This document shows, piece after piece, positions 19,094 to 58,179 of a stretch of 64,000 nucleotides of DNA. The stretch comes from Treponema sp. CETP13 (lineage in GTDB: Bacteria > Spirochaetota > Spirochaetia > Treponematales > Treponemataceae): contig MLPZ01000001.1 of the NCBI GenBank assembly GCA_001885315.1, positions 62,001-126,000 on the forward strand, in the 5' to 3' direction. The position numbers and the translations under genes were made by a program. Position 1 is the stretch's first letter; each line of letters starts with the position of its first letter. The notes under the pieces are model-generated. The model searched no databases, was not told the origin of the DNA, and saw only the letters and a list, made by a program, of their open reading frames with translations.

Positions 19094-20599
19094 TTACTCA
19101 CCAGCATGGCCAATGCCAAGTATTTTAAGTTCACGGTCAGAAAGTCCTATACCACGCAACATTAGGCGGTTGCCTTTAAGTGCTTCGATAGAGTTAATAC
19201 CCATTCCACCCATCATTTCTTTAATTTCGTGAGTCCAGGCAGTAACTAAGTTTACGAGCCGCCTTGTTCCTTCATCCGGATTTAGTCGTTTTACTAAATC
19301 AGGGCGCTGAGTAGCAATACCCCAGTTACATTTACCTGTTTGACAGGTTCGACATAAATGACAGCCGAGCGCCATAAGAGCAGAAGTTGCTATATAACAA
19401 CAATCGGCGCCAAGTGCAATAGCTTTTACAACGTCAGCACTTGAACGAATAGAACCACCAACAATTATTGAAACTTGATCTCTAATACCTTCTTCTCGAA
19501 GACGTTGATCAACAGAAGCCAGTGCTAATTCAATAGGAATACCAACATTATCACGAATACGAGTAGGGGCAGCACCGGTGCCTCCTCTAAAACCATCAAT
19601 GGAAATAATATCAGCCCCACTTCGAGCAACACCAGAAGCAATAGCTGCAACATTATGAACAGCCGCAATCTTTACGATAACGGGCTTTGTATAGTTAGAA
19701 GCTTCTTTTAAGCTAAATACCAATTGACGTAAATCTTCAATAGAATAAATATCGTGATGTGGAGCTGGAGAAATAGCATCACTACCTTGAGGAATCATAC
19801 GTGTTGCAGAAACTTCTGCTCCAATTTTTGTTCCAGGTAAATGTCCACCAATACCAGGTTTTGCACCTTGCCCCATTTTAATCTCAATTGCACAACCTGC
19901 CATTAAAAAGTCTTTATGAACTCCAAAACGACCAGATGCAACTTGAACAATAGTATTTTTACCATATTTGTAAAAATCTTTATGCAATCCACCTTCACCG
20001 GTGTTGTAACAAATACCTAATTCTGTTGCTGCTCTGGCTAAAGATTCATGAGCGTTATAACTAATAGAACCGTAACTCATAGCAGAAAACATAATAGGAA
20101 CAGATAAATCTATATGAGGAGGACGTTTTGTAACTAATTTACCATTTTCATCTCGAGTGATTTTTTCTGGCTTTTTACCCAGAGAAACTTTTGTTTCCAT
20201 AGGTTCTCTAAGTGGGTCAATACTAGGATTGGTTACTTGAGAAGCATTAATAAGCATTTTGTCCCAATAAATAGGAGGTTTTGCTGGGTTTCCCATACTT
20301 GAGAGTAAAACTCCACCGCTTTCAGCTTGGCGATATACCTCATAAATAGTCTGTTGAGACCAGTTTAAATTTTCTTTGAGTTGATTTGGATTTTTAACAA
20401 TTTTAAGTGCATGGGTTGGGCAAATGGATACACAACGCTGACAATCAACACATTTACTTTCGTCGGCACGCATAATTCCGCGTTTTGGATCAAAGAAATG
20501 CACCTCATTAGCACATTGGCGTTCACATGCTCGACACTGTATACAACGATCTTGATCGCGTATAACGTCAAATTCGGGTTGGCAATAATCTATAGACAT
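19094..20599 (-). CDS. Glutamate synthase, FMN-binding domain protein with N-terminal ferredoxin domain
   Basis: The 501-residue protein is the central synthase domain that aminates 2-oxoglutarate. Residues 15-75 hold two [4Fe-4S] motifs (CIQCRACERQC and CVDCQRCVSICP), as in archaeal-type GltB. The FMN barrel follows with MSYGSISYNAHESLARAA, GEGGLH, IKMGQGAKPGIGGHLPG, DIYSIEDLRQL, FRGGTGAAPT, IIVGGSIR and a Cys-rich CHLCRTCQTGKCNWGIATQ that binds the 3Fe-4S cluster. The amidotransferase and GXGXG domains are separate genes in the same operon. The start lies within the last codons of the preceding gene (10-base overlap), with AGGGAGA upstream. Confidence 0.93.
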   Translation of the reverse strand: MSIDYCQPEFDVIRDQDRCIQCRACERQCANEVHFFDPKRGIMRADESKCVDCQRCVSICPTHALKIVKNPNQLKENLNWSQQTIYEVYRQAESGGVLLSSMGNPAKPPIYWDKMLINASQVTNPSIDPLREPMETKVSLGKKPEKITRDENGKLVTKRPPHIDLSVPIMFSAMSYGSISYNAHESLARAATELGICYNTGEGGLHKDFYKYGKNTIVQVASGRFGVHKDFLMAGCAIEIKMGQGAKPGIGGHLPGTKIGAEVSATRMIPQGSDAISPAPHHDIYSIEDLRQLVFSLKEASNYTKPVIVKIAAVHNVAAIASGVARSGADIISIDGFRGGTGAAPTRIRDNVGIPIELALASVDQRLREEGIRDQVSIIVGGSIRSSADVVKAIALGADCCYIATSALMALGCHLCRTCQTGKCNWGIATQRPDLVKRLNPDEGTRRLVNLVTAWTHEIKEMMGGMGINSIEALKGNRLMLRGIGLSDRELKILGIGHAGE

Positions 20600-21696
20600 T
20601 GGGCAATTCTCCCTTTTTCGTTAAGTTTTACAATAACTGCTTCTCCACCTTTTGGACTCCAAACATTTTCTACATTTGGTTCAATTACGCGGATAGCGCA
20701 TTCTTCACTTGCAAAATACATCATGTCGCCTTTTTCGGCAGCAACCATAGAGCGAAGTTTTAGGCGATCGTTAAGAGCCATTAGCCCACCATTATATCCA
20801 AGTAAAATAGAGAAAGGTCCTGTAATAAGCATTTCAGGATATACTTCACGTAAAAATGATAATTGTTCTCTTTCTTCTTTTGGCATTTTTTCTATTGTGG
20901 ACCAAAAAGGTGCTGCTACAATTTTTGCTGCTTCTTCTAAAGAAAAATTTTCTTTACGTACTAAATAGTCAAAAATATAGGTTATAACTTCTGTATCAGT
21001 TAAAAGATCGCATTTGTAACCAAACATTTCTATAAAGCGCCTATTTGAATCATAACTAGAAATTTCACCGTTATGGACAATAGTCATGTCGAGAAGGGCA
21101 AAAGGATGTGCTCCACCCCACCAACCTGGTGTATTTGTAGGATAGCGTCCATGAGCTGTCCAACAATACCCAGAATATTGATCTAGTTCGTAAAACTCCC
21201 CAATATCTTCTGGAAAACCTACGGCTTTAAAAACTCCCATGTTTTTCCCGCTAGAAAATACATATGCGCCTTCAATTTTAGAATTAATGTGAATAACGCA
21301 ACGTGAGGTAAACTCTTGTTCTTCAAGTTGACTTGATTGTAATCTAACATGCAAAGGAGTTACAAAATAACGCCATATAAGTGGTGCATCGGTAATATTT
21401 TTATGCTGTTTTGTAGGAATTTTTGATAAATTAATAATATCAAAATGTTGTTCTAAATAAAGTTCACATTCATGTTTTGCTTCGATTGAATCATAAAAAA
21501 TATGAAAAGCATAATAATCTTTATATTCTGGATATATACCATAACCCGCAAAACCACCACCAAGACCATTTGATCTATCGTGCATTGTTGCAATTGAAGT
21601 AATTATGTCTCTTCCTGAAAAGCGCTTGCCATCTCGAGAAAAAATTCCTGAAATAGCGCAGCCAGACGGAATTCTTATTTCGCCTTCTTTCTTCAT
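20590..21696 (-). CDS. Class II glutamine amidotransferase of a split glutamate synthase
   Basis: The 368-residue protein is the Ntn-type glutaminase domain that releases ammonia for the synthase. The likely nucleophile is Cys13 in IPSGCAISGIFS; it would have to become N-terminal by removal of 12 residues, as in GltB precursors. The region SGYCWTAHGRYPTNTPGWWGGAHPFALLDMTIVHNGEISSYD carries the class II motifs (RYPT, the glutamine-binding NGE, and AHPF). It corresponds to the GlxB/GltB1 type. I chose the ATG at 21696 (AGGGAGA just upstream) over in-frame starts at 21717 and 21741, which would overlap asnB. Confidence 0.88.
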   Translation of the reverse strand: MKKEGEIRIPSGCAISGIFSRDGKRFSGRDIITSIATMHDRSNGLGGGFAGYGIYPEYKDYYAFHIFYDSIEAKHECELYLEQHFDIINLSKIPTKQHKNITDAPLIWRYFVTPLHVRLQSSQLEEQEFTSRCVIHINSKIEGAYVFSSGKNMGVFKAVGFPEDIGEFYELDQYSGYCWTAHGRYPTNTPGWWGGAHPFALLDMTIVHNGEISSYDSNRRFIEMFGYKCDLLTDTEVITYIFDYLVRKENFSLEEAAKIVAAPFWSTIEKMPKEEREQLSFLREVYPEMLITGPFSILLGYNGGLMALNDRLKLRSMVAAEKGDMMYFASEECAIRVIEPNVENVWSPKGGEAVIVKLNEKGRIAQCL

Positions 21697-21697
21697 G

Positions 21698-23434
21698 TTA
21701 TTCTCCCTTATATGCATCTTCGTGCACGCCTGCAACGGCACGACCAGATGGTTCGTTCATTGTTTTAAATGCTGCATCCCATTCAAGTGCTATTGCAGTA
21801 GAGCAGGCTACCGAAGCTTCTTGTGGAACAGTTTTTGCTGCTGTTTCTGATGGAAAATGTGCAGTAAAAATAGAGCGATAGTAATATTCTTCTTTTGTTT
21901 TTGGTGTATTATGAGGGAAACGCTTTGCAGCAGCTTCAAATTGAGCGTCTGTTACTTTTTGAGACGTCATTTCTTTTAATGTATCAATCCAGTTGTACCC
22001 AACCCCATCAGAAAATTGTTCTTTTTGTCGCCAAGTAATACTCTCTGGTAAATAGTCTTCGAAAGCTTTACGTAGAATCCATTTTTCGACACGATCTTTA
22101 CCACCATGTCCATCATTACACATTTTATCTTTTGGATTTAAGCGCATTGCAACGTCCATAAATTCTTTATCTAAGAATGGCACACGGCCTTCGATTCCCC
22201 ATGCTGCAAGCGATTTATTAGCTCGTAAACAGTCATAAGAGTGTAACTTAGAAAGTTTTCGAACTGTTTCTTCATGAAATTCTTTTGCATTTGGAGCTTT
22301 ATGAAAGTATAAATATCCTCCAAAAAGTTCATCTGCCCCTTCCCCAGAAAGAACCATTTTTATTCCCATTGATTTAATAACACGGGCAAGTAAATACATA
22401 GGGGTAGACGCTCTAATTGTTGTAATATCGTACGTTTCTAAATGATATATAACATCGCTTAGAGCATCGAGCGCTTCTTGAATAGTAAAATGAACTTCAT
22501 GATGAACGGTTCCAATAAAGTCAGCTGCTTTTTGTGCTGCAATAAGATCGGGAGATCCTTCTAATCCAATTGCAAAACTGTGTAATCGAGGCCACCATGC
22601 TTCTTTTGTATCATTACTTTCAATACGCTTGTTAGCAAATTTTTGTGTAATTGCAGCGGTAATAGAAGAATCTAGTCCTCCAGAAAGCAAAACGCCGTAT
22701 GGAACATCACTCATGAGTTGCCGTTTTACAGCGGCTATAAGAGCTGAACGTAATTCTTCAATACTCGATGTGTTGTCTTTTACAGCATCATATTTTTCCC
22801 AATCTCGTTTGTACCATTTTTTTGGTGCTGTATCGGTGCTAAAATAATATGTTCCAGGTAAAAATTCTTCTATTGTGTAGCAAATCCCTTCGAGTGCTTT
22901 TAATTCACTTGCAACATAATAGCGACCATCAGCATCCCATCCTTGATATAAAGGAATAATACCCATGTGATCGCGTGCAATTAGATACGCATTTTTTTTG
23001 CTATCATACAGAGCAAATGAAAAAATACCATTTAAGTCGTCTAAAAAGTCGACTCCTTTATCTTCATATAATGCAAGAATTGGTTCACAATCGCTTTGTG
23101 TTTTAAATTTATATTCTTTACCACAAAAAGTTTTAGTGCCAGGAGTATATCGTGCTCTAATTTCTTTATGATTATAAATTTCACCATTAACAGCAAGAAT
23201 AATAGTATTATCCTTATTTGTAAGGGGTTGTTTCCCTGAAAGTGGATCGACAATTGCTAATCTTTCGTGACTAATGATTGCGTTTTCGCCGGTATAGATG
23301 CCAGACCAATCTGGACCACGGTGACGAATTTTTTTTGACATAGATAAAATCTGTGTTCGTAATGTTTCTTTCATGCCTTCGTCTACAGGTACAGAAGCGT
23401 TTTTTATGTCAAACGCGCCTACAAAACCACACAT
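21698..23434 (-). CDS. asnB: Asparagine synthase (glutamine-hydrolysing)
   Basis: A 578-residue enzyme making asparagine from aspartate, glutamine and ATP. The N-terminus MCGFVGAF exposes the catalytic Cys after Met removal; RHRGPDWSG, SHERLAIVDP and NGEIYNHKEIR are glutaminase motifs. The synthetase half has the pyrophosphatase motif GVLLSGGLDSSI (near residue 235), SGEGADELFGGY and VPFLDKEF. The sequence is close to the AsnB type of E. coli. It is the first gene of the glutamate synthase operon, next gene 1 base away, so asparagine and glutamate synthesis share a transcript and the upstream leader. Confidence 0.95.
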   Translation of the reverse strand: MCGFVGAFDIKNASVPVDEGMKETLRTQILSMSKKIRHRGPDWSGIYTGENAIISHERLAIVDPLSGKQPLTNKDNTIILAVNGEIYNHKEIRARYTPGTKTFCGKEYKFKTQSDCEPILALYEDKGVDFLDDLNGIFSFALYDSKKNAYLIARDHMGIIPLYQGWDADGRYYVASELKALEGICYTIEEFLPGTYYFSTDTAPKKWYKRDWEKYDAVKDNTSSIEELRSALIAAVKRQLMSDVPYGVLLSGGLDSSITAAITQKFANKRIESNDTKEAWWPRLHSFAIGLEGSPDLIAAQKAADFIGTVHHEVHFTIQEALDALSDVIYHLETYDITTIRASTPMYLLARVIKSMGIKMVLSGEGADELFGGYLYFHKAPNAKEFHEETVRKLSKLHSYDCLRANKSLAAWGIEGRVPFLDKEFMDVAMRLNPKDKMCNDGHGGKDRVEKWILRKAFEDYLPESITWRQKEQFSDGVGYNWIDTLKEMTSQKVTDAQFEAAAKRFPHNTPKTKEEYYYRSIFTAHFPSETAAKTVPQEASVACSTAIALEWDAAFKTMNEPSGRAVAGVHEDAYKGE

Positions 23435-23495: not shown

Positions 23496-23557
23496 TTAAA
23501 AAAAGAGAAGGCGCCCGTAGATATATTTTAAAACATATTCTACGGACGCCTTTGTCC
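23496..23557 (-). promoter_or_regulatory. Hexaloop/terminator leader of the asnB-glutamate synthase operon (ANTAR-type)
   Basis: Read on the minus strand, GGAC-AAAGGC-GTCC (23557 to 23544) forms a small hairpin with hexaloop AAAGGC, having A at position 1 and G at position 4. The loop end and 3' arm also begin an intrinsic terminator: GGCGTCCGTAG pairs with CTACGGGCGCC (11 bp, one G-U) and is followed by TTCTCTTTTTTT. The two structures exclude each other, as in leaders controlled by ANTAR antiterminators. The hairpin starts about 6 bases after the predicted RNA start. Confidence 0.78.
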
Positions 23558-40375: not shown

Positions 40376-40404
40376 TTGACAAAAAAAAAGTTTTTTGCTA
40401 AAGT
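40376..40404 (+). promoter_or_regulatory. Promoter of the type III glutamine synthetase gene
   Basis: TTGACA (40376-40381), 17 bases, TAAAGT (40399-40404), with an extended -10 TGC. The predicted RNA starts near 40411, five bases before the hexaloop hairpin. Confidence 0.8.
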
Positions 40405-40415
40405 GCCTATATAAA

Positions 40416-40472
40416 ACATCAAAGGCGATGTGTTCTAGGGGTAAATTTCTAGAATACAGCGCTTTTTTTTTT
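40416..40472 (+). promoter_or_regulatory. Hexaloop/terminator leader of the type III glutamine synthetase gene (ANTAR-type)
   Basis: ACATC (40416-40420), loop AAAGGC (40421-40426), GATGT (40427-40431) form a 5-bp hairpin with A1 and G4 in the loop. The loop and 3' arm are also the 5' strand of a terminator: GGCGATGTGTTCTAG (40424-40438) pairs with CTAGAATACAGCGC-type sequence (40449-40462, one A-G mismatch and one wobble), followed by ten Ts. Formation of the hexaloop hairpin would break the base of the terminator. Confidence 0.8.
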
Positions 40473-40511: not shown

Positions 40512-42605
40512 ATGGAAAATATTCCTGAATTATTTGGAAGTATGGTTTTTAATGAAACTGTAATGAAAGAACGGTTGCCTAAAGATGCCTGGAAGTCACT
40601 CCAGAAGACATTAAAAGAGAATACTCCATTAGAGCCTGGCACAGCAAATGCTGTTGCACATGCAATGAAAGAATGGGCAGTCGAAAACGGTGCTACACAC
40701 TTTACACACTGGTTTCAACCAATGACTGGTATTACAGCAGAAAAACATGATAGTTTTATCCAACCAGCAGGTGATGGTAAAGTTATAATGCGTTTTTCTG
40801 GAAAAGAACTTATAAAAGGTGAACCTGATGCATCTAGTTTTCCTAATGGTGGTCTTCGAGCAACTTTTGAAGCTCGTGGGTATACAGCATGGGATCCAAC
40901 ATCATATGCTTTCTTAAAAGATGGCTCTCTTTGTATTCCAACAGCTTTCTGTTCTTACAATGGTGAAGCTCTTGATAAAAAGACTCCACTTTTGCGTTCA
41001 ATGGAAATTCTTAATAAAGAAGCCTTACGCGTTGTTAAGCTTTTTGGAACGGAAGCAAATCGTGTAAATTGTACAGTAGGTGCTGAGCAAGAATACTTTT
41101 TAATTGATGAAAAAGTATACAATGAACGTCCTGATTTAAAATTTTGTGGCCGGACACTTTTTGGTTCAAAACCACCTAAAGGTCAAGAATTAGATGATCA
41201 TTATTTTGGTGCTATCAAACCTCGTGTTTCAGCATACATGAAAGAATTAGATTCTGAATTGTGGAAATTAGGAATTTTAAGCAAGACTAAACATAATGAG
41301 GTTGCTCCTTCTCAACATGAGATGGCTCCAATTTTTACAACAACAAATCTTGCAACAGATCAAAACCAGATTGTAATGGAGACGATGAAAAAAGTAGCTC
41401 GACGTAATGGTCTTGTTTGTCTTCTACATGAAAAACCTTATGCTGGTCTTAATGGTTCTGGAAAACATAATAACTGGTCTATTTCTACTGATACTGGAGT
41501 CAACTTGCTTGAACCAGGTGATTCTCCATCAGAGAATGCACAATTTCTCTTGATTTTAGCTGCAGTTATTAAAGCGGTAGATAAGCATCAAGATTTATTA
41601 CGTATGTCTGTTGCTAGTGCAGGAAATGATCATCGTTTGGGAGCAAACGAAGCCCCTCCAGCAATTATTTCGATGTTTGTTGGTTCAGATTTAGGTGAGA
41701 TTTTAGATTCTATTGTAGACGGTACAACTTATAGCAAAAAAGCCAAAGAGCTTATGACTATTGGTGTTGATGTACTTCCTTCTTTTGCTAAAGACACAAC
41801 GGATCGTAACAGAACAAGTTCTTTTGCATTCACAGGTAATAAGTTTGAGTTTAGATCTCTTGGATCGTCTCAGTCACTTGCATCTCCTAATATTATGCTT
41901 AATACCGCTGTTGCAGAAACTATGGCAGAATTTGCTGATATATTAGAAAAAGCCGGAACTGGAGAGTCTTTTACAAAAGCTTTGAATGATCTTGTAAAAA
42001 CAACACTTAAAGAACACATGAAAATTGTTTTTAATGGTAATGGTTATGATGATTCTTGGATTGGTGAAGCAGAAAAACGTGGTTTATTAAACTTGCGACG
42101 CACAACTGATGCATTGCCATGTTTGGTAGATTCAAAAAATATTGCATTTTTTGAAAAATTTGGTGTCTATTCAAAAGCAGAACTAGAGAGTCGCTATGAA
42201 ATCTTAATGGAAAATTATAGTAAAGAACTTCATATCGAAGCTCTTACTTCTTTAGAAATGATTAAACGTGATATTCTACCAGCTGTAACAGATTTCTTAT
42301 CTGATACAGCAATGGCAGTTGAAAATGTAAAATCTGTTTCAAAATCTGCTTGTAAATCACAGCTAGAAACGATAGAAACTGTTTCTGCTCTTTCTGATAC
42401 TTTATATGAAAAGACAGAAAAATTTGATTCTATAATGTTAAAAGCAAATTCAATTAGTGATGTAATTGAGCAAGCTTGTTATTATGCAGATACCGTAATT
42501 ACTGCTATGGTAGATATACGCTCTGTTGTAGATGAACTTGAAACAATTGTTGGTAGCGATTACTGGCCTTATCCATCTTATGGTGAGATGTTGTTTTCTG
42601 TTTAA
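40512..42605 (+). CDS. glnN: Type III glutamine synthetase (GlnN)
   Basis: A 697-residue GSIII enzyme making glutamine from glutamate, ammonia and ATP, dodecameric in the family. [83 protein letters not shown] and [17 protein letters not shown] are GSIII signatures carrying metal- and substrate-binding residues; the C-terminal helical region (600-697) is also typical. It has its own promoter and hexaloop leader, and a GGAGG ribosome site. amtB-PII follows with a separate leader. Confidence 0.97.
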
Positions 42606-42709: not shown

Positions 42710-42781
42710 CACGTCAAAGGCGACGTGAGTATAAGAATTAGAACCTTTATAGGGATTCTTATACTCACGTCGCCTTTTTTT
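42710..42781 (+). promoter_or_regulatory. Hexaloop/terminator leader of amtB-PII (ANTAR-type)
   Basis: CACGTC (42710-42715), loop AAAGGC (42716-42721), GACGTG (42722-42727) form a 6-bp hairpin with the same hexaloop as the other two leaders. From the loop on, a perfect 20-bp stem (42719-42738 with 42755-42774), extended to 23 by A-T pairs, ends in seven Ts: a very strong terminator. A weak TAGTAA -10 lies at 42693-42698, putting the RNA start at about the same distance from the hairpin as in the other leaders. Confidence 0.82.
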
Positions 42782-42820: not shown

Positions 42821-44533
42821 ATGGATGTAACAGCATTGAGTTTGGATACCCTATGGGTATTGCTTGGCGCAGCGTTGGTTTTCTTTATGCAAGCCGGATT
42901 TGCTATGGTAGAAACAGGGTTTACCAGGGCTAAAAATGCCGGAAATATCATAATGAAAAATCTTATGGATTTTGCATGTGGATCAGTTGTTTTTTGGTTC
43001 ATTGGTTATGGTATCATGTATGGTAGTGCAAATGGATTCTGGGGTGGATTAGATTTCTTTAGTCTCAAATTGACTTCAGAGAGTATGGCTGGCAATATTC
43101 CTACTTGGACTCATCTTATTTTTAATACTGTATTTTGTGCAACAGCTGCTACTATTGTTTCTGGAGCTATGGCTGAGAGAACAAAATTTAAATCATATTT
43201 GATTTATTCAATTGTCATTAGTGCAATTATTTATCCTATTGAAGGTCACTGGATATGGGGTGGTGGATGGTTATCTAACCTAAGTATTGCTGGATGGACT
43301 GGTTTCCATGATTATGCAGGTTCTACTGCAGTTCATATGACTGGTGGTATTGCTGCTTTGGTTGGAGCTGCTGTTCTTGGTCCTCGTATTGGTAAATATG
43401 ACAAAAATGGAAAGTCTAAAGCTATTCCAGCACATTCTATTACACTTGGAGCCTTAGGTGTATTTATTTTGTGGTTTGGTTGGTTTGGATTTAACCCAGC
43501 TTCTAGTTATGGTCTTTCTAGTGTAGATAATGCACTTGATGTTTCAAATGTATTTATGACAACAAATATTGCAGCTGCTTGTGCAACTGTTGTTACAATG
43601 ATTGTTACTTGGTTCCGTTATGGAAAACCAGATGTTTCAATGACCTTAAATGGTTCTTTAGCTGGTTTAGTTGCAATTACTGCTTGTTGTTCTGCAATTG
43701 ATCCTTGGGCAGCCGCTATTGTAGGTGCTGTTGCAGGTGTAATCGTTGTTTTTGGTGTTGAATTTATTGATAAAGTACTAAAAATTGATGATCCTGTAGG
43801 TGCTGTAGCCGTTCACGGACTTAATGGTATTTGGGGAACATTAGCTGTTGGTTTATTTGGTCGTGAAGGTGGATTACTTCTTGGACAGGGTGCTGGTCGT
43901 TTCTTAGTTCAATTAGTTGGTGTTCTTTCTGTTGCTGCTTTTGTTGCTGCTACAATGTTTGTTTTGTTTATAATTATCAAAAAAACAGTTGGACTTCGTG
44001 TAAGTGCTGAAGAAGAAGTTATTGGTCTTGATGTTATGGAACATGGTTTATCTTCTGCATATGCTGACTTTATGCCAACAACTATTGGTAATGGAATGGA
44101 TGATGATGAAAGTCCTGTTGCTCCTGGAAGTGTTGAACCTCAGGTTGCTGTTCCTGTAACAGAAGTTACTACAAATGATGGTCATAAAATTTCTAAAGTT
44201 GTAGTTGTTTGTCGTCAAGATAGATTTACACGGCTTAAGAATGCTATGAACTCTATAGGTGTAAGTGGTATGACAGTTATGAATGTTATGGGTTGTGGAC
44301 TTCAGAAAGGTGCAAGCGAATATTATCGTGGTGTTCCTTTAGAAATTAATTTACTACCTAAACTAAAAGTAGAAATTGTTGTATCAAAAGTTCCTGTAGA
44401 TACTGTTATTGCAGCTGCAAAACAGGCTCTTTATACCGGCCATATCGGTGACGGAAAAATATTTGTTTACAATGTAGAAAACGTTGTAAAAGTTCGAACT
44501 GGTGAACAAGGTTATGATGCTTTGCAATACTAG
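42821..44533 (+). CDS. amtB: Ammonium transporter fused to a PII regulatory domain
   Basis: The 570-residue protein has an Amt channel (residues 1-420, 11 predicted helices: VLLGAALVFFMQAGFAMVETGFTRAKN, then DYAGSTAVHMTGG and DDPVGAVAVHGLNGIWGTLAVG with the pore His) and, after a linker, a C-terminal PII domain (about 460-570: KISKVVVVCRQDRFTRLKNAM, T-loop GLQKGASEYYRGVPLEI, TGHIGDGKIFVYNVENVVKVRTGE). PII normally plugs the channel when nitrogen is replete. Gln39 of the T-loop is kept, but the uridylylated Tyr51 position is Leu, so control by uridylylation is unlikely. GAAGGAGA precedes the ATG at 42821; an upstream open frame runs through the leader terminator. Confidence 0.95.
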   Translation: MDVTALSLDTLWVLLGAALVFFMQAGFAMVETGFTRAKNAGNIIMKNLMDFACGSVVFWFIGYGIMYGSANGFWGGLDFFSLKLTSESMAGNIPTWTHLIFNTVFCATAATIVSGAMAERTKFKSYLIYSIVISAIIYPIEGHWIWGGGWLSNLSIAGWTGFHDYAGSTAVHMTGGIAALVGAAVLGPRIGKYDKNGKSKAIPAHSITLGALGVFILWFGWFGFNPASSYGLSSVDNALDVSNVFMTTNIAAACATVVTMIVTWFRYGKPDVSMTLNGSLAGLVAITACCSAIDPWAAAIVGAVAGVIVVFGVEFIDKVLKIDDPVGAVAVHGLNGIWGTLAVGLFGREGGLLLGQGAGRFLVQLVGVLSVAAFVAATMFVLFIIIKKTVGLRVSAEEEVIGLDVMEHGLSSAYADFMPTTIGNGMDDDESPVAPGSVEPQVAVPVTEVTTNDGHKISKVVVVCRQDRFTRLKNAMNSIGVSGMTVMNVMGCGLQKGASEYYRGVPLEINLLPKLKVEIVVSKVPVDTVIAAAKQALYTGHIGDGKIFVYNVENVVKVRTGEQGYDALQY

Positions 44534-44559
44534 AACGAAAAATTAATTTGAGGGTTTTT

Positions 44560-44610
44560 GACGGTCTGTTTCCTCTCCCGGGAAAGTTTTACTAACAGGC
44601 CGTCTTTTTT
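44560..44610 (+). terminator. Terminator after amtB-PII
   Basis: GACGGTCTGTT (44560-44570) pairs with AACAGGCCGTC (44594-44604), 11 bp with one wobble, followed by six Ts. A smaller TTTCC/GGAAA hairpin sits in the loop. No AAAGGC hexaloop is present here. Confidence 0.85.
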
Positions 44611-44627
44611 ATTTTAAATTTGTTTTT

Positions 44628-44702: not shown

Positions 44703-45989
44703 ATGGGATATACCGAAAATGAAGTTTTAGAGTTTATAAATGATAATGATGTAAAATTTATAAAACTCATGTTTTGTGATTTATTTGGTGTTCTTAAAAC
44801 TGTTTCGATTATGCCCGAAGAAATCTCGCGTGCTTTAGATTGCGGGATTTCATTTGATGCAACAGGCATTCCTGGTTTTACAAATTCTGTAGAAAGTGAT
44901 TTATTTTTAAAACCAGATGTAAATACTATGACTATTTTACCGTGGCGCCCACAAAGAGGTCGTGTTTTACGGTTTTATGCAAATGTTTATTATCCAGATG
45001 GGACACCTTGTGTAGGTGGAACTCGGCAATTATTAATGCGTACCGAAAAAAAATTAACAGATCTTGGCTATTCGTGTAGAGTTGGTACAGAATGTGAGTT
45101 TTATCTCTTTGAAAATGACGAAAATGGTTTTCCAACGCGTATACCTCATGATAATGCTACATATTGTGATGCTGCTCCGTTAGATAAAGGTGAGAATGTT
45201 CGCCGAGAAATTTGTCTCACGCTTGAGCAAATGAAAATTAGACCTGAAACATCACACCATGAGTCTGGCCCTGGGCAACATGAAATTGATTTTAGGCATG
45301 CTCCTATATTAGAAGCTGCAGATAATCTGTCGACTTTTAAGAATGTTGTCAAAATAATTGCAGTCAAAAATGGACTTTTTGCTTCTTTTATGCCAAAACC
45401 ACTTGATGGTAGTGAACTGGCAAATGGTATAACAGCTGCAGGCAGTGGATTACATATAAATCTTAGTTTACATAAAACGGGCGAAAAGACATTAGCATTA
45501 GATAGTTGGGAGTCGCAAGCTTTTATTGCTGGAATTTTAACACATATTAGAGAAATTACTGCCTTTTTAAACCCGTATACAAATTCTTATAGTCGATTTG
45601 GAAAATGTGAAGCTCCTCGTTTTATTAGTTGGTCTCACCAAAATAGATCACAGTTAATACGTATTCCTGCAGCAAAAGATGAATATATTCGTTTTGAGTT
45701 ACGCTCGCCTGATCCTTCATGTAGTCAATATTTAGCCCTTGCTCTTATTTTAGAAGCAGGTATTGATGGTATTGCTAATAAAATGAAATTACAGCCAGAG
45801 ATAAATAAAAACTTATATGATGAAGATATAGATACTTCTGAACTTGATGTTCTTCCTGAAACATTAGGGGAAGCATTAAATGTTGCAGAAAAATCTGAGT
45901 TTATAGCTTCTGTTCTTCCAAAAGAGTTAATTTCTTTATATATAGAATCTAAACGTAGTAATCCTATAGGAGCCTTTGAAGTTTTATAA
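44703..45989 (+). CDS. glnA: Type I glutamine synthetase family protein
   Basis: A 428-residue GSI-family enzyme. FIKLMFCDLFGVLKTVSI and FDATGIPGF are the N-terminal beta-grasp region contributing an active-site Asp; GTECEFYLF, SGPGQHEIDFRHAP and AGSGLHINLSLHKTG carry metal ligands; NPYTNSYSRFG, NRSQLIRIP and FELRSPDPSCSQYLALALIL are typical. The usual HxH of GSGMHxHxSL reads H-I-N, so the second His is replaced. It is somewhat shorter than the usual 440-470 residues and has no adenylylation Tyr segment that I can identify. Its stop overlaps the ANTAR gene start by one base, as in clostridial glnA-nitR pairs, so the enzyme and regulator are made together. Confidence 0.9.
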   Translation: MGYTENEVLEFINDNDVKFIKLMFCDLFGVLKTVSIMPEEISRALDCGISFDATGIPGFTNSVESDLFLKPDVNTMTILPWRPQRGRVLRFYANVYYPDGTPCVGGTRQLLMRTEKKLTDLGYSCRVGTECEFYLFENDENGFPTRIPHDNATYCDAAPLDKGENVRREICLTLEQMKIRPETSHHESGPGQHEIDFRHAPILEAADNLSTFKNVVKIIAVKNGLFASFMPKPLDGSELANGITAAGSGLHINLSLHKTGEKTLALDSWESQAFIAGILTHIREITAFLNPYTNSYSRFGKCEAPRFISWSHQNRSQLIRIPAAKDEYIRFELRSPDPSCSQYLALALILEAGIDGIANKMKLQPEINKNLYDEDIDTSELDVLPETLGEALNVAEKSEFIASVLPKELISLYIESKRSNPIGAFEVL

Positions 45990-46558
45990 TGACTAGTGTA
46001 CTACTTGTTTCTAATACAAATACTACTCTCCAATTGTTATCGTCGTTTATGACAGAGCAGTCTATATCTAGACTTGTTACTTCGACTGATGGAGCAAGCG
46101 CTCGACGGGAGATTTTAGATACAGATTTTGATCTAATAATAATCGATAGCCCTCTAAAAGATGAATTAGGAGTTAACTTTGCTTTAGACGCTGCTGATAA
46201 AACAACTAGTGGTATAATTTATGTTACAAAGTATGAAAATCTATACGATGCAAACGAAGAATTAGAAGATGGAGGAGTATTTGTACTTCCTAAACCTATA
46301 AGTCCAGAGCTCTTTTATCAAGCCATTAGGCTTTTAACAGCTAGTCGTCGACGGGTTCTTAAATTAGAAGAAGAAAATAATAAATTACAAAATAAAATTG
46401 AAGAAATAAAACTTGTAAATCGTGCTAAATGTGTTCTTATTCAATACTTAAGCATGAGTGAAGATCAAGCACACAGACACATTGAAAAACAAGCTATGGA
46501 TTTGCGTGTTTCACGAAAAAAAGTCGCTGAACGTATTCTCATTCGCTACGAATCTTAG
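45989..46558 (+). CDS. ANTAR-domain RNA-binding antiterminator with a pseudo-receiver domain
   Basis: The 189-residue protein has an N-terminal receiver-like domain (MTSVLLVSNTNTT to about 120), a coiled coil (RRRVLKLEEENNKLQNKIEEIKL) and a C-terminal ANTAR domain (VNRAKCVLIQYLSMSEDQAHRHIEKQAMDLRVSRKKVAERIL). ANTAR proteins bind paired hexaloop hairpins in leader RNA and prevent termination. The receiver keeps an Asp (LIIIDSP) and Lys (LPKPIS), but the usual acidic pair at its start is SN, so phosphorylation looks doubtful. It overlaps glnA by one base. Its likely targets are the three AAAGGC leaders in this window. It resembles NitR/NasT-type nitrogen regulators. Confidence 0.9.
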   Translation: MTSVLLVSNTNTTLQLLSSFMTEQSISRLVTSTDGASARREILDTDFDLIIIDSPLKDELGVNFALDAADKTTSGIIYVTKYENLYDANEELEDGGVFVLPKPISPELFYQAIRLLTASRRRVLKLEEENNKLQNKIEEIKLVNRAKCVLIQYLSMSEDQAHRHIEKQAMDLRVSRKKVAERILIRYES

Positions 46559-56588: not shown

Positions 56589-56617
56589 GGGGCTATTACA
56601 CAATTAATGTTTAAAAT

Positions 56618-56658
56618 AAAAAAGCCATAGACTGAAATTTTTCAATCTATGGCTTTTT
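56618..56658 (-). terminator. Terminator after glyA
   Basis: AGCCATAGA and TCTATGGCT arms enclose an AT-rich loop and are flanked by A and T runs on both sides; it follows the glyA stop by about 20 bases and can act in both directions. Confidence 0.82.
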
Positions 56659-56676: not shown

Positions 56677-58179
56677 CTATTTACAAAAGTATTTTTGTAA
56701 AAGAGGAAGGTCTAATTCTGGGTAGAGCACAAAGTTAGCTAGTAAATTTTGTACTCTTTCGGTTGCGGCTTTTTTAACTGCTGGATCTAAATCAATTTTA
56801 CCTTTTGCAGGTTTTCCGGTTTTTGTAAGCCCTGGTTTTGTGCCTTTAAGAACCATATCAATAATATCAGCAATTTCTACCATTTGCTCTTTCCCCATAC
56901 CAAGAGTAGTAGTAGCAGGAGTTCCAACTCGAATACCACTTGTCCACCAAGGCCCCATTGGATCAAATGGGAGGGTGTTTCTGTTTAATGTAATACCACA
57001 TTCAAATAGGGCGTTTTCTGCTTGACGACCAGTTAATCCGAATGTTGTAGTATCAATAAGCATAAGGTGGTTGTCTGTTCCATTAGTTTGGAGTTTCATT
57101 CCTTTTTTCATGCATTCTTCAGCAAGTGCTTTTGCATTAGATTGAACATTGCGTGCATATTCTTGATATGCTGGAGTTCTTGCTTCTTTAAAAGCAATTG
57201 CTTTTGCTGCCATAACATGAGGAAGAGGACCTCCTAGTACAAGAGGACAACCTTTGTTTATAAACTCTTCATATTCTTTTTTACAAAGAATAAGAGCACC
57301 ACGAGGGCCTCTAAGAGTTTTGTGTGTTGTAGTTGTTACAACATCTGCCCATTTAACAGGATCATTGTCACCGGTAAAAACTTTTCCAGCAACTAAACCT
57401 GCAAAGTGTGCCATATCTACCATTAATACAGCTCCACATTTATCAGCAATTTCGCGGAAACGGCGAAAATTAACAGTTCTAGGATATGCAGAATAACCAG
57501 TTAATAAGATTAATGGTTTTACTTCCATTGCTTGTTTTTCTATTGCATCGTAATCGAAAAGGCCTGTTTTTTTATCTACAGTATATGAATGTGATTCAAA
57601 CATTTTTGCAGAAACATTCATTCTGTAACCGTGAGTAAGATGTCCACCGGAATAATAATCTAGACCCATAAGTTTTTGATTACCTAATTTTTGGCGAATG
57701 CTTTCCCATTGTGCATCAGTTAAGTTAGAAGCATTTGTTTCGCCAAATTCTTCCATAGCAGGCATTTCTATTTTTTTGTTAAGAATTGCCCAGTAAGCTA
57801 CCATGTTTGCATCTGCACCTGCATGAGGTTGAACATATGCATAATCTGCACCAAAAAGAGCTTCTGCTTCATGTGCTGCTGTTTTTTCTACAAAATCTAC
57901 ATTTTCACAACCGCCATAATAACGGTGATCAGGATACCCTTCTGCATATTTATCTGTAAGTATGTTTCCCATAGCTGCTTGTACACTTAATGAACAATAA
58001 TTTTCACTAGCAACTAATTTTAAGTGTTTACGTTGTGTTGCAAGTTCGTTAACAATATCTGCGGCAATATCTGGACCGACTTTCGCAGTTTGCTGTAGGT
58101 TAGCAACGTATGCAATCATTGCATCGTTCTGTTTGTCGGCCGGTGTGTTGGCCAGATAATCCTGTAAAGGTGATGACAT
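56677..58179 (-). CDS. glyA: Serine hydroxymethyltransferase
   Basis: This 500-residue PLP enzyme interconverts serine and glycine, charging tetrahydrofolate with a one-carbon unit. ASENYCSLSVQAAMGNILTDKYAEGYPDHRYYGG is the N-terminal substrate loop, VQPHAGADANMVAY contacts the cofactor, VMVDMAHFAGLVAG holds the Asp/His pair, and TTTTHKTLRGPRGALIL has the PLP-binding Lys. It is longer than the usual ~420 because of insertions around residues 150-180 and near the C-terminus (KGTKPGLTKTGKPAKGK), as in other spirochaete and actinobacterial forms. Translation is probably controlled by the upstream ZTP-riboswitch-like leader. Confidence 0.96.
   Translation of the reverse strand: MSSPLQDYLANTPADKQNDAMIAYVANLQQTAKVGPDIAADIVNELATQRKHLKLVASENYCSLSVQAAMGNILTDKYAEGYPDHRYYGGCENVDFVEKTAAHEAEALFGADYAYVQPHAGADANMVAYWAILNKKIEMPAMEEFGETNASNLTDAQWESIRQKLGNQKLMGLDYYSGGHLTHGYRMNVSAKMFESHSYTVDKKTGLFDYDAIEKQAMEVKPLILLTGYSAYPRTVNFRRFREIADKCGAVLMVDMAHFAGLVAGKVFTGDNDPVKWADVVTTTTHKTLRGPRGALILCKKEYEEFINKGCPLVLGGPLPHVMAAKAIAFKEARTPAYQEYARNVQSNAKALAEECMKKGMKLQTNGTDNHLMLIDTTTFGLTGRQAENALFECGITLNRNTLPFDPMGPWWTSGIRVGTPATTTLGMGKEQMVEIADIIDMVLKGTKPGLTKTGKPAKGKIDLDPAVKKAATERVQNLLANFVLYPELDLPLLQKYFCK

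Follow-up and report, generated by a model that had tools for sequence, protein, structure and literature searches.

The window analysed here, a 64,000-nucleotide stretch of Treponema sp. CETP13 (contig MLPZ01000001.1, positions 62,001 to 126,000 of the forward strand), carries leaders of a common design ahead of glnN, asnB and amtB, together with a gene for an ANTAR regulator. Its features are as follows, in window coordinates.

40376..40404, + strand: glnN promoter, with -35 TTGACA at 40376-40381, a 17-nt spacer and -10 TAAAGT at 40399-40404, a geometry conserved among relatives
40416..40431, + strand: glnN single hexaloop hairpin, ACATC-AAAGGC-GATGT, with A1, G4 and a closing C-G pair
40421..40470, + strand: glnN intrinsic terminator with a T run at its end; the 3′ arm and loop of the hexaloop hairpin serve again as its 5′ base
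40512..42605, + strand: glnN, type III glutamine synthetase (GSIII; Pfam GSIII_N, Gln-synt_C)
42710..42727, + strand: amtB single hexaloop hairpin, CACGTC-AAAGGC-GACGTG
42716..42781, + strand: amtB overlapping terminator
42821..44533, + strand: amtB with a fused C-terminal PII domain (Pfam Ammonium_transp, P-II)
44703..45989, + strand: glnA-like glutamine synthetase, immediately followed by the ANTAR gene
45989..46558, + strand: gene for an ANTAR regulator whose receiver domain is degenerate; no other ANTAR gene was detected in the genome
23570..23599, - strand: asnB promoter, with TTGACT at 23599-23594, an 18-nt spacer and TATAAA at 23575-23570
23544..23557, - strand: asnB single hexaloop hairpin, GGAC-AAAGGC-GTCC
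23499..23553, - strand: asnB overlapping terminator
21698..23434, - strand: asnB, glutamine-dependent asparagine synthase
20590-21741 and 19094-20599, - strand: glutamate synthase genes following asnB

All three leaders present one A1/G4 hexaloop, CAAAGGCG, in which the loop AAAGGC is closed by a C-G pair. At glnN, 11 nt separate the end of the -10 element from the hexaloop stem, and sigma70 prediction places the start near 40411, about 7 nt past the -10 and 5 nt before the stem; at asnB, the distance is 12 nt and the predicted start again lies about 5 nt ahead of the hairpin, as the original prediction had held for both genes. The glnN terminator (-21.3 kcal/mol) is far more stable than the lone hexaloop hairpin (-3.4 kcal/mol), and across the window leaders the terminators range from -21 to -40 kcal/mol compared to only -3 to -7 kcal/mol for the hexaloop hairpins, a difference that fits a switch whose default state is off and which needs a protein to turn it on. 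A simple hexaloop scan of the window gave 22 sites, most of them chance matches in coding DNA, and only those with an overlapping terminator were retained. The third genome-wide site of the pattern TCAAAGGCGA (L004) lies in coding sequence and lacks a hairpin. Two extra A1/G4 candidates occur upstream of the leaders in the window: aaaaAAAGTTtttt falls inside the glnN promoter spacer and is therefore not transcribed, and a weak A-U stem with the loop ATCGTG is located 29 nt upstream of the amtB hexaloop.

The amtB leader departs from the arrangement first proposed for it. While a -10-like TAGTAA does lie 11 nt upstream of the hairpin, an acceptable -35 was not found, and a position at the extreme 5′ end of the RNA is not supported; amtB is therefore dropped as an example of a 5′-end hairpin. 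The hairpin instead follows the glnN stop codon at a distance of 105 nt, and a promoterless amtB leader (L076) is likewise found behind the GSIII gene of another family member, so that the amtB leader is probably an intercistronic switch behind glnN, still with a single hexaloop. Between amtB and glnA, a terminator-like hairpin at 44552-44612 (GACGGTCTG...CAGGCCGTC-T6) bears no A1/G4 hexaloop, and the glnA-ANTAR unit thus seems switchless in this genome.

Thirty-eight leaders from loci around the ANTAR genes of relatives were aligned from the loop onward, and a covariance model that left out both the promoter and the hexaloop 5′ arm was run on the loci. The three window sites, all among the 38 training sequences, gave E-values of 4e-8, 4e-7 and 9e-5. 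Of 99 non-redundant matches in the Treponemataceae, 95 possess a 5′ arm that pairs over 3 bp or more, compared to 7% in the control, and the hexaloop is closed by C-G in every one of these 95 leaders. In 80 of the 95, a sigma70 promoter lies ahead of the loop, the gap from the end of its -10 being 9-25 nt; four control windows placed farther upstream gave 2-9 of 95, and leaders were not selected by promoter position. The loops carry A1 in 93 and G4 in all 95, although the loop sequence is no independent test, since the model includes the loop bases and the 38 sequences were chosen for, and the model thus built on, such loops. The two exceptions, from one genus, begin with G (GAAGAC in L043 10895-; GAGGAC in L091 10875-) and constitute a naturally occurring departure from the A1 rule. 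The system is carried by Candidatus Treponema equifaecale, a member that places the family in the Treponemataceae. A window match at 56617-56656, just downstream of ORF 56677-58179, looks like an ordinary terminator, two weak matches from the same genome (L096 and L099) are plain terminators with no hexaloop, and matches elsewhere in the phylum, outside the Treponemataceae, are also mostly plain terminators; of the latter, one (L139, genome G331) adjoins an ANTAR gene and has the look of a genuine single-hexaloop leader.

The terminator helix is strongly maintained in the 38-leader alignment, with 97.1% of cells paired, 149 double changes and a covariation of 0.771, compared to 0.247 when shuffled and 0.08-0.17 when slid. 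Loop positions 5-6 (GC, AC or AG) track the terminator 3′ arm in the combinations GGC/GCC, GAC/GTC and GAG/CTC. Hairpins near the first nucleotides often stabilise messages, and the hairpin could on this ground serve mainly to shield the mRNA from decay, with the terminator acting in ordinary attenuation. Such a role is scarcely credible, as it leaves unexplained the fixed loop sequence, the covariation between the loop and the terminator 3′ arm, and the link to ANTAR genes described below.

The characterized amiE, nasF and eut leaders all contain two hexaloop hairpins, P1 and P2 (PMC3369931, PMC3369936), which in the eut leaders of Enterococcus faecalis are joined by a linker of 5-12 nt (Ramesh 2012, PMC3369931). 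Induction by EutV is abolished by deletion of P1 or by a change to the P1-P2 linker (Ramesh 2012, PMC3369931), and both hairpins, along with a fixed linker, are needed in vivo (PMC3369931, PMC8934654). By these precedents, a classical dual-hexaloop mechanism might operate here with a partner that escaped detection, either since transcription starts further upstream or since the P1 loop departs from consensus, and amtB, which may be read from glnN, would have room for the weak A-U hairpin with the loop ATCGTG. However, A1/G4 hexaloops within 50 nt upstream occur only at the rate of chance, with 5 of 95 spirochaete leaders having one when 3 Watson-Crick pairs are required, where shuffled sequences predict 5.9, and 2 of 95 when 4 are required, where they predict 2.0, and the promoterless amtB leader L076 has no upstream A1/G4 hairpin. 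The 39 clostridial leaders discussed below yield 5 at 3 pairs against an expected 2.6, and 2 at 4 pairs against 0.7; both of the 4-pair cases are the first unit of tandem switches. As a positive control, a similar scan of a clostridial eut locus, recognized by Pfam from its EutA, EutB, EutW-like kinase and receiver-ANTAR protein (EutV), recovered, at two terminators, hexaloops paired at a spacing of 23 nt and, at a third, a pair whose first loop starts with G. Moreover, the promoter lies at a near-constant distance in most of the 134 leaders from two phyla (95 spirochaete and 39 clostridial), which leaves no room for an upstream partner. A conserved promoter distance and the lack of any conserved upstream hexaloop together make a hidden partner unlikely, and the original claims of one hexaloop per leader and, at glnN and asnB, of no transcribed room for another withstood the comparison. 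The leaders thus display the A1/G4 loop and the terminator-overlapping hairpin of the motif defined by Ramesh 2012, and lack its two tandem hairpins with a short linker; at the level of anatomy, this supports the suggested single-hexaloop variant of the ANTAR mechanism.

Two complete hexaloop-terminator units, 64-151 nt apart, are nonetheless found in 7 of the 95 spirochaete leaders (L088 10863+, L072 1061-, L046 17115-, L077 2317+, L037 7174-, L045 11044+ and L118 1501+), mostly preceding GSIII or glutamate synthase genes. In two clostridial leaders (L181 7502-/7452- and L183 7501-/7451-), the hexaloop units are 50 nt apart and the first loop, AATGGG, overlaps its own terminator. Tandem units such as those of the spirochaetes, along with a EutV crystal in which one dimer holds two loops of two RNA molecules (PMC8934654), speak for a reading in which two loops are still needed and one dimer bridges hexaloops on different RNAs or of tandem units. 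This is decidedly unlikely, given that most leaders have one unit, that every tandem unit has its own terminator, and that, in the view of the EutV authors, a moving polymerase leaves too little time for pairing in trans. The spirochaete tandem units are instead serial single switches rather than a paired motif, and could sharpen the response. For a single hexaloop, half a dimer or two RNAs per dimer had first been suggested as possibilities. By analogy, the crystal structure of EutV favours binding of one loop by a whole dimer (PMC8934654), as may also apply to the single hexaloops described here.

The window ANTAR protein scores 59.4 bits against the ANTAR family PF03861 (cut-off 27.3; residues 132-184) and matches the structures of Rv1626, EutV, AmiR and NasR. 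Across 99 ANTAR proteins, the equivalents of EutV K149, E160 and M172 are invariant (the last being Met170 in the window protein), and those of positions 143 and 147 are almost always Arg or Lys. The equivalent of EutV Tyr164, which stacks on G4, is His162 in the window protein and His in 94 of the 99, and that of Arg142 is Ile in 87, so the RNA contacts must differ from those of EutV in detail. The acidic pair of the receiver domain is replaced by Ser-Asn in the window protein and elsewhere mostly by Ser or Thr with a non-acidic residue, while the phospho-accepting Asp (Asp53) is retained in spirochaetes but has given way to Asn in 36 of the 46 clostridial proteins. The combination of acidic pair and phospho-Asp that typifies a phosphorylated response regulator is thus absent from the window receiver, and control by phosphorylation is unlikely.

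The gene for this protein and the leaders occur together. Of 100 ANTAR loci, 93 have glnA immediately 5′ of the regulator gene, and among 195 family genomes, leaders (E<=1e-4) are present in 85 of 136 with an ANTAR gene compared to 6 of 59 without (p=3e-12, with kinship ignored). Within G085-G194, nearly all of one genus, the respective values are 67 of 94 and 1 of 16 (p=1e-6). A few fairly complete genomes have leader matches but no detected ANTAR gene, such as G027 (93% complete). Direct binding by the ANTAR protein is something we infer, and no Rfam family matches the window at its gathering score; hence, a non-ANTAR factor, be it another RNA-binding protein or a ligand, might read the attenuator. 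An A1/G4 hexaloop overlapping a terminator is, however, the ANTAR signature, and the presence of leaders tracks that of ANTAR genes, which they flank in many loci, with two leaders preceding the ANTAR gene itself, making a different reader very improbable. The single-hexaloop leader at L041 9678-9718 (-), immediately 5′ of the ANTAR gene, suggests autoregulation.

Beyond the spirochaetes, the closest relatives of the window ANTAR protein in the bacterial genome collection are from Clostridia, with up to 49% identity. The clostridial gltB, GSIII and glnA leaders display TTGACA-N17-TATAAT followed after about 6-15 nt by one CAANGNNG hexaloop and an overlapping terminator, a likeness suggesting that the regulatory unit as a whole was transferred between the Treponemataceae and Clostridia or inherited by both from a common ancestor. 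The genes behind 133 leaders are GSIII or glnA (43), the gltB group (24), asnB (16), CTP synthase (pyrG; 16), carA (8), dapF (5), carB (3) and amtB (3), with gltD, gdhA, the ANTAR gene itself, purC, purB and gatC in ones and twos, where target groups with no window homologue were named by reading the sequences rather than by database search. The predicted regulon is thus one of glutamine and ammonia metabolism, nearly all of its targets making or using one or the other. Through leaders such as L050 2661+, L120 1501+ and L122 1669+, the regulon appears to take in pyrG, carA, carB and dapF; with these it appears wider than earlier ANTAR nitrogen regulons, dapF being unexpected.

On these grounds, the leaders are best understood as protein-controlled attenuators in which a NitR-like branch of ANTAR proteins would antiterminate through one hexaloop, a reading to which a probability of roughly 0.8 is assigned. 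It draws on comparison of sequences for the mutually exclusive hairpins, the promoter position, the absent second hexaloop, the co-occurrence with ANTAR genes and the targets, and from these we infer the binding, the antitermination, the signal, and whether nitrogen shortage turns the switch on or off. In the proposed mechanism, polymerase would start 1-6 nt ahead of the small hairpin, whose C-G-closed hexaloop bearing A1 and G4 would fold first. If unheld, its loop and 3′ arm would be captured by the downstream strand to form the stabler terminator, and transcription would stop. Under nitrogen shortage, the product of the ANTAR gene behind glnA would bind and lock the single hexaloop, permitting read-through into genes for ammonia assimilation and glutamine use, with no upstream recruitment hairpin (P1) involved. 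As phosphorylation of the receiver is unlikely, the obvious substitute is a partner protein, contact with which would probably be the trigger. By its position, the neighbouring glutamine synthetase is the leading guess for this signal partner, with PII second; the PII domain fused to the amtB product (42821-44533) is a possible nitrogen sensor for the ANTAR protein. The fuller proposal, that an ANTAR branch shared by the Treponemataceae and Clostridia combines a single hexaloop near the start, no recruitment hairpin and no phosphorylation with control by contact with the neighbouring glutamine synthetase, is possible and is put forward tentatively.

Single-hexaloop leaders thus extend well beyond the window, to many related spirochaetes and gut Clostridia. 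The search of 1902 genomes by Ramesh 2012 considered dual hairpins only (PMC3369931), and since earlier surveys required two hairpins, this putative nitrogen regulon was overlooked; a promoter, a hexaloop and an overlapping terminator now provide a family-wide search rule. Among the papers searched, none links ANTAR to Treponema. In EutV, the dimer touches a single loop at any moment, P1 is proposed as a recruitment hairpin, and single-hexaloop sites are expected where a moving polymerase sets no time limit (Walshe 2022, PMC8934654). The leaders described here are single-hexaloop sites where polymerase does set such a limit, and nature appears to have simplified the ANTAR switch into one that the current model says should fail. 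Either recruitment by P1 is specific to EutV, or closeness to the promoter or polymerase substitutes for it. The EutV authors ask why both hairpins are needed when the dimer touches one (PMC8934654), a question that leaders lacking P1 make testable.

Among known systems, EutV and the eut leaders of E. faecalis share with this one the A1/G4 hexaloop, the C-G closing pair, the terminator-exclusive hairpin and an ANTAR protein with an N-terminal receiver-like domain. They differ in having two hexaloops, where here there is one at the predicted 5′ end of the RNA, and the protein described here is set apart by its degenerate receiver, the replacement of Tyr164 by His and of Arg142 by Ile, and a gene located behind glnA. 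NitR, an ANTAR protein of Clostridium saccharobutylicum, is reported (Stutz 2007, as cited in PMC6316151) to induce GS/GOGAT cycle genes by antitermination on nitrogen limitation. The system presented here resembles it as a putative ANTAR regulator of GS/GOGAT genes by antitermination, and shares the NitR-type arrangement of an ANTAR gene behind glnA and leaders upstream of GSIII, glnA and gltB, for which regulation is predicted; relative to that account of NitR, the spirochaete regulon also includes asnB, pyrG, carAB and amtB. AmiR, which acts on amiE of Pseudomonas aeruginosa, likewise has a non-phosphorylated pseudo-receiver and a His at the position of EutV Tyr164, but the amiE leader has two hexaloops (PMC3369931) and the signal partner of AmiR is AmiC, a precedent for the partner protein envisaged here. 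Finally, the RAT elements of BglG/LicT-SacY also rely on a single terminator-excluding hairpin stabilised by a protein dimer, as dimer binding is presumed to do here, but the protein there has the CAT fold, unrelated to ANTAR, and the stem is interrupted by internal loops and lacks a hexaloop.
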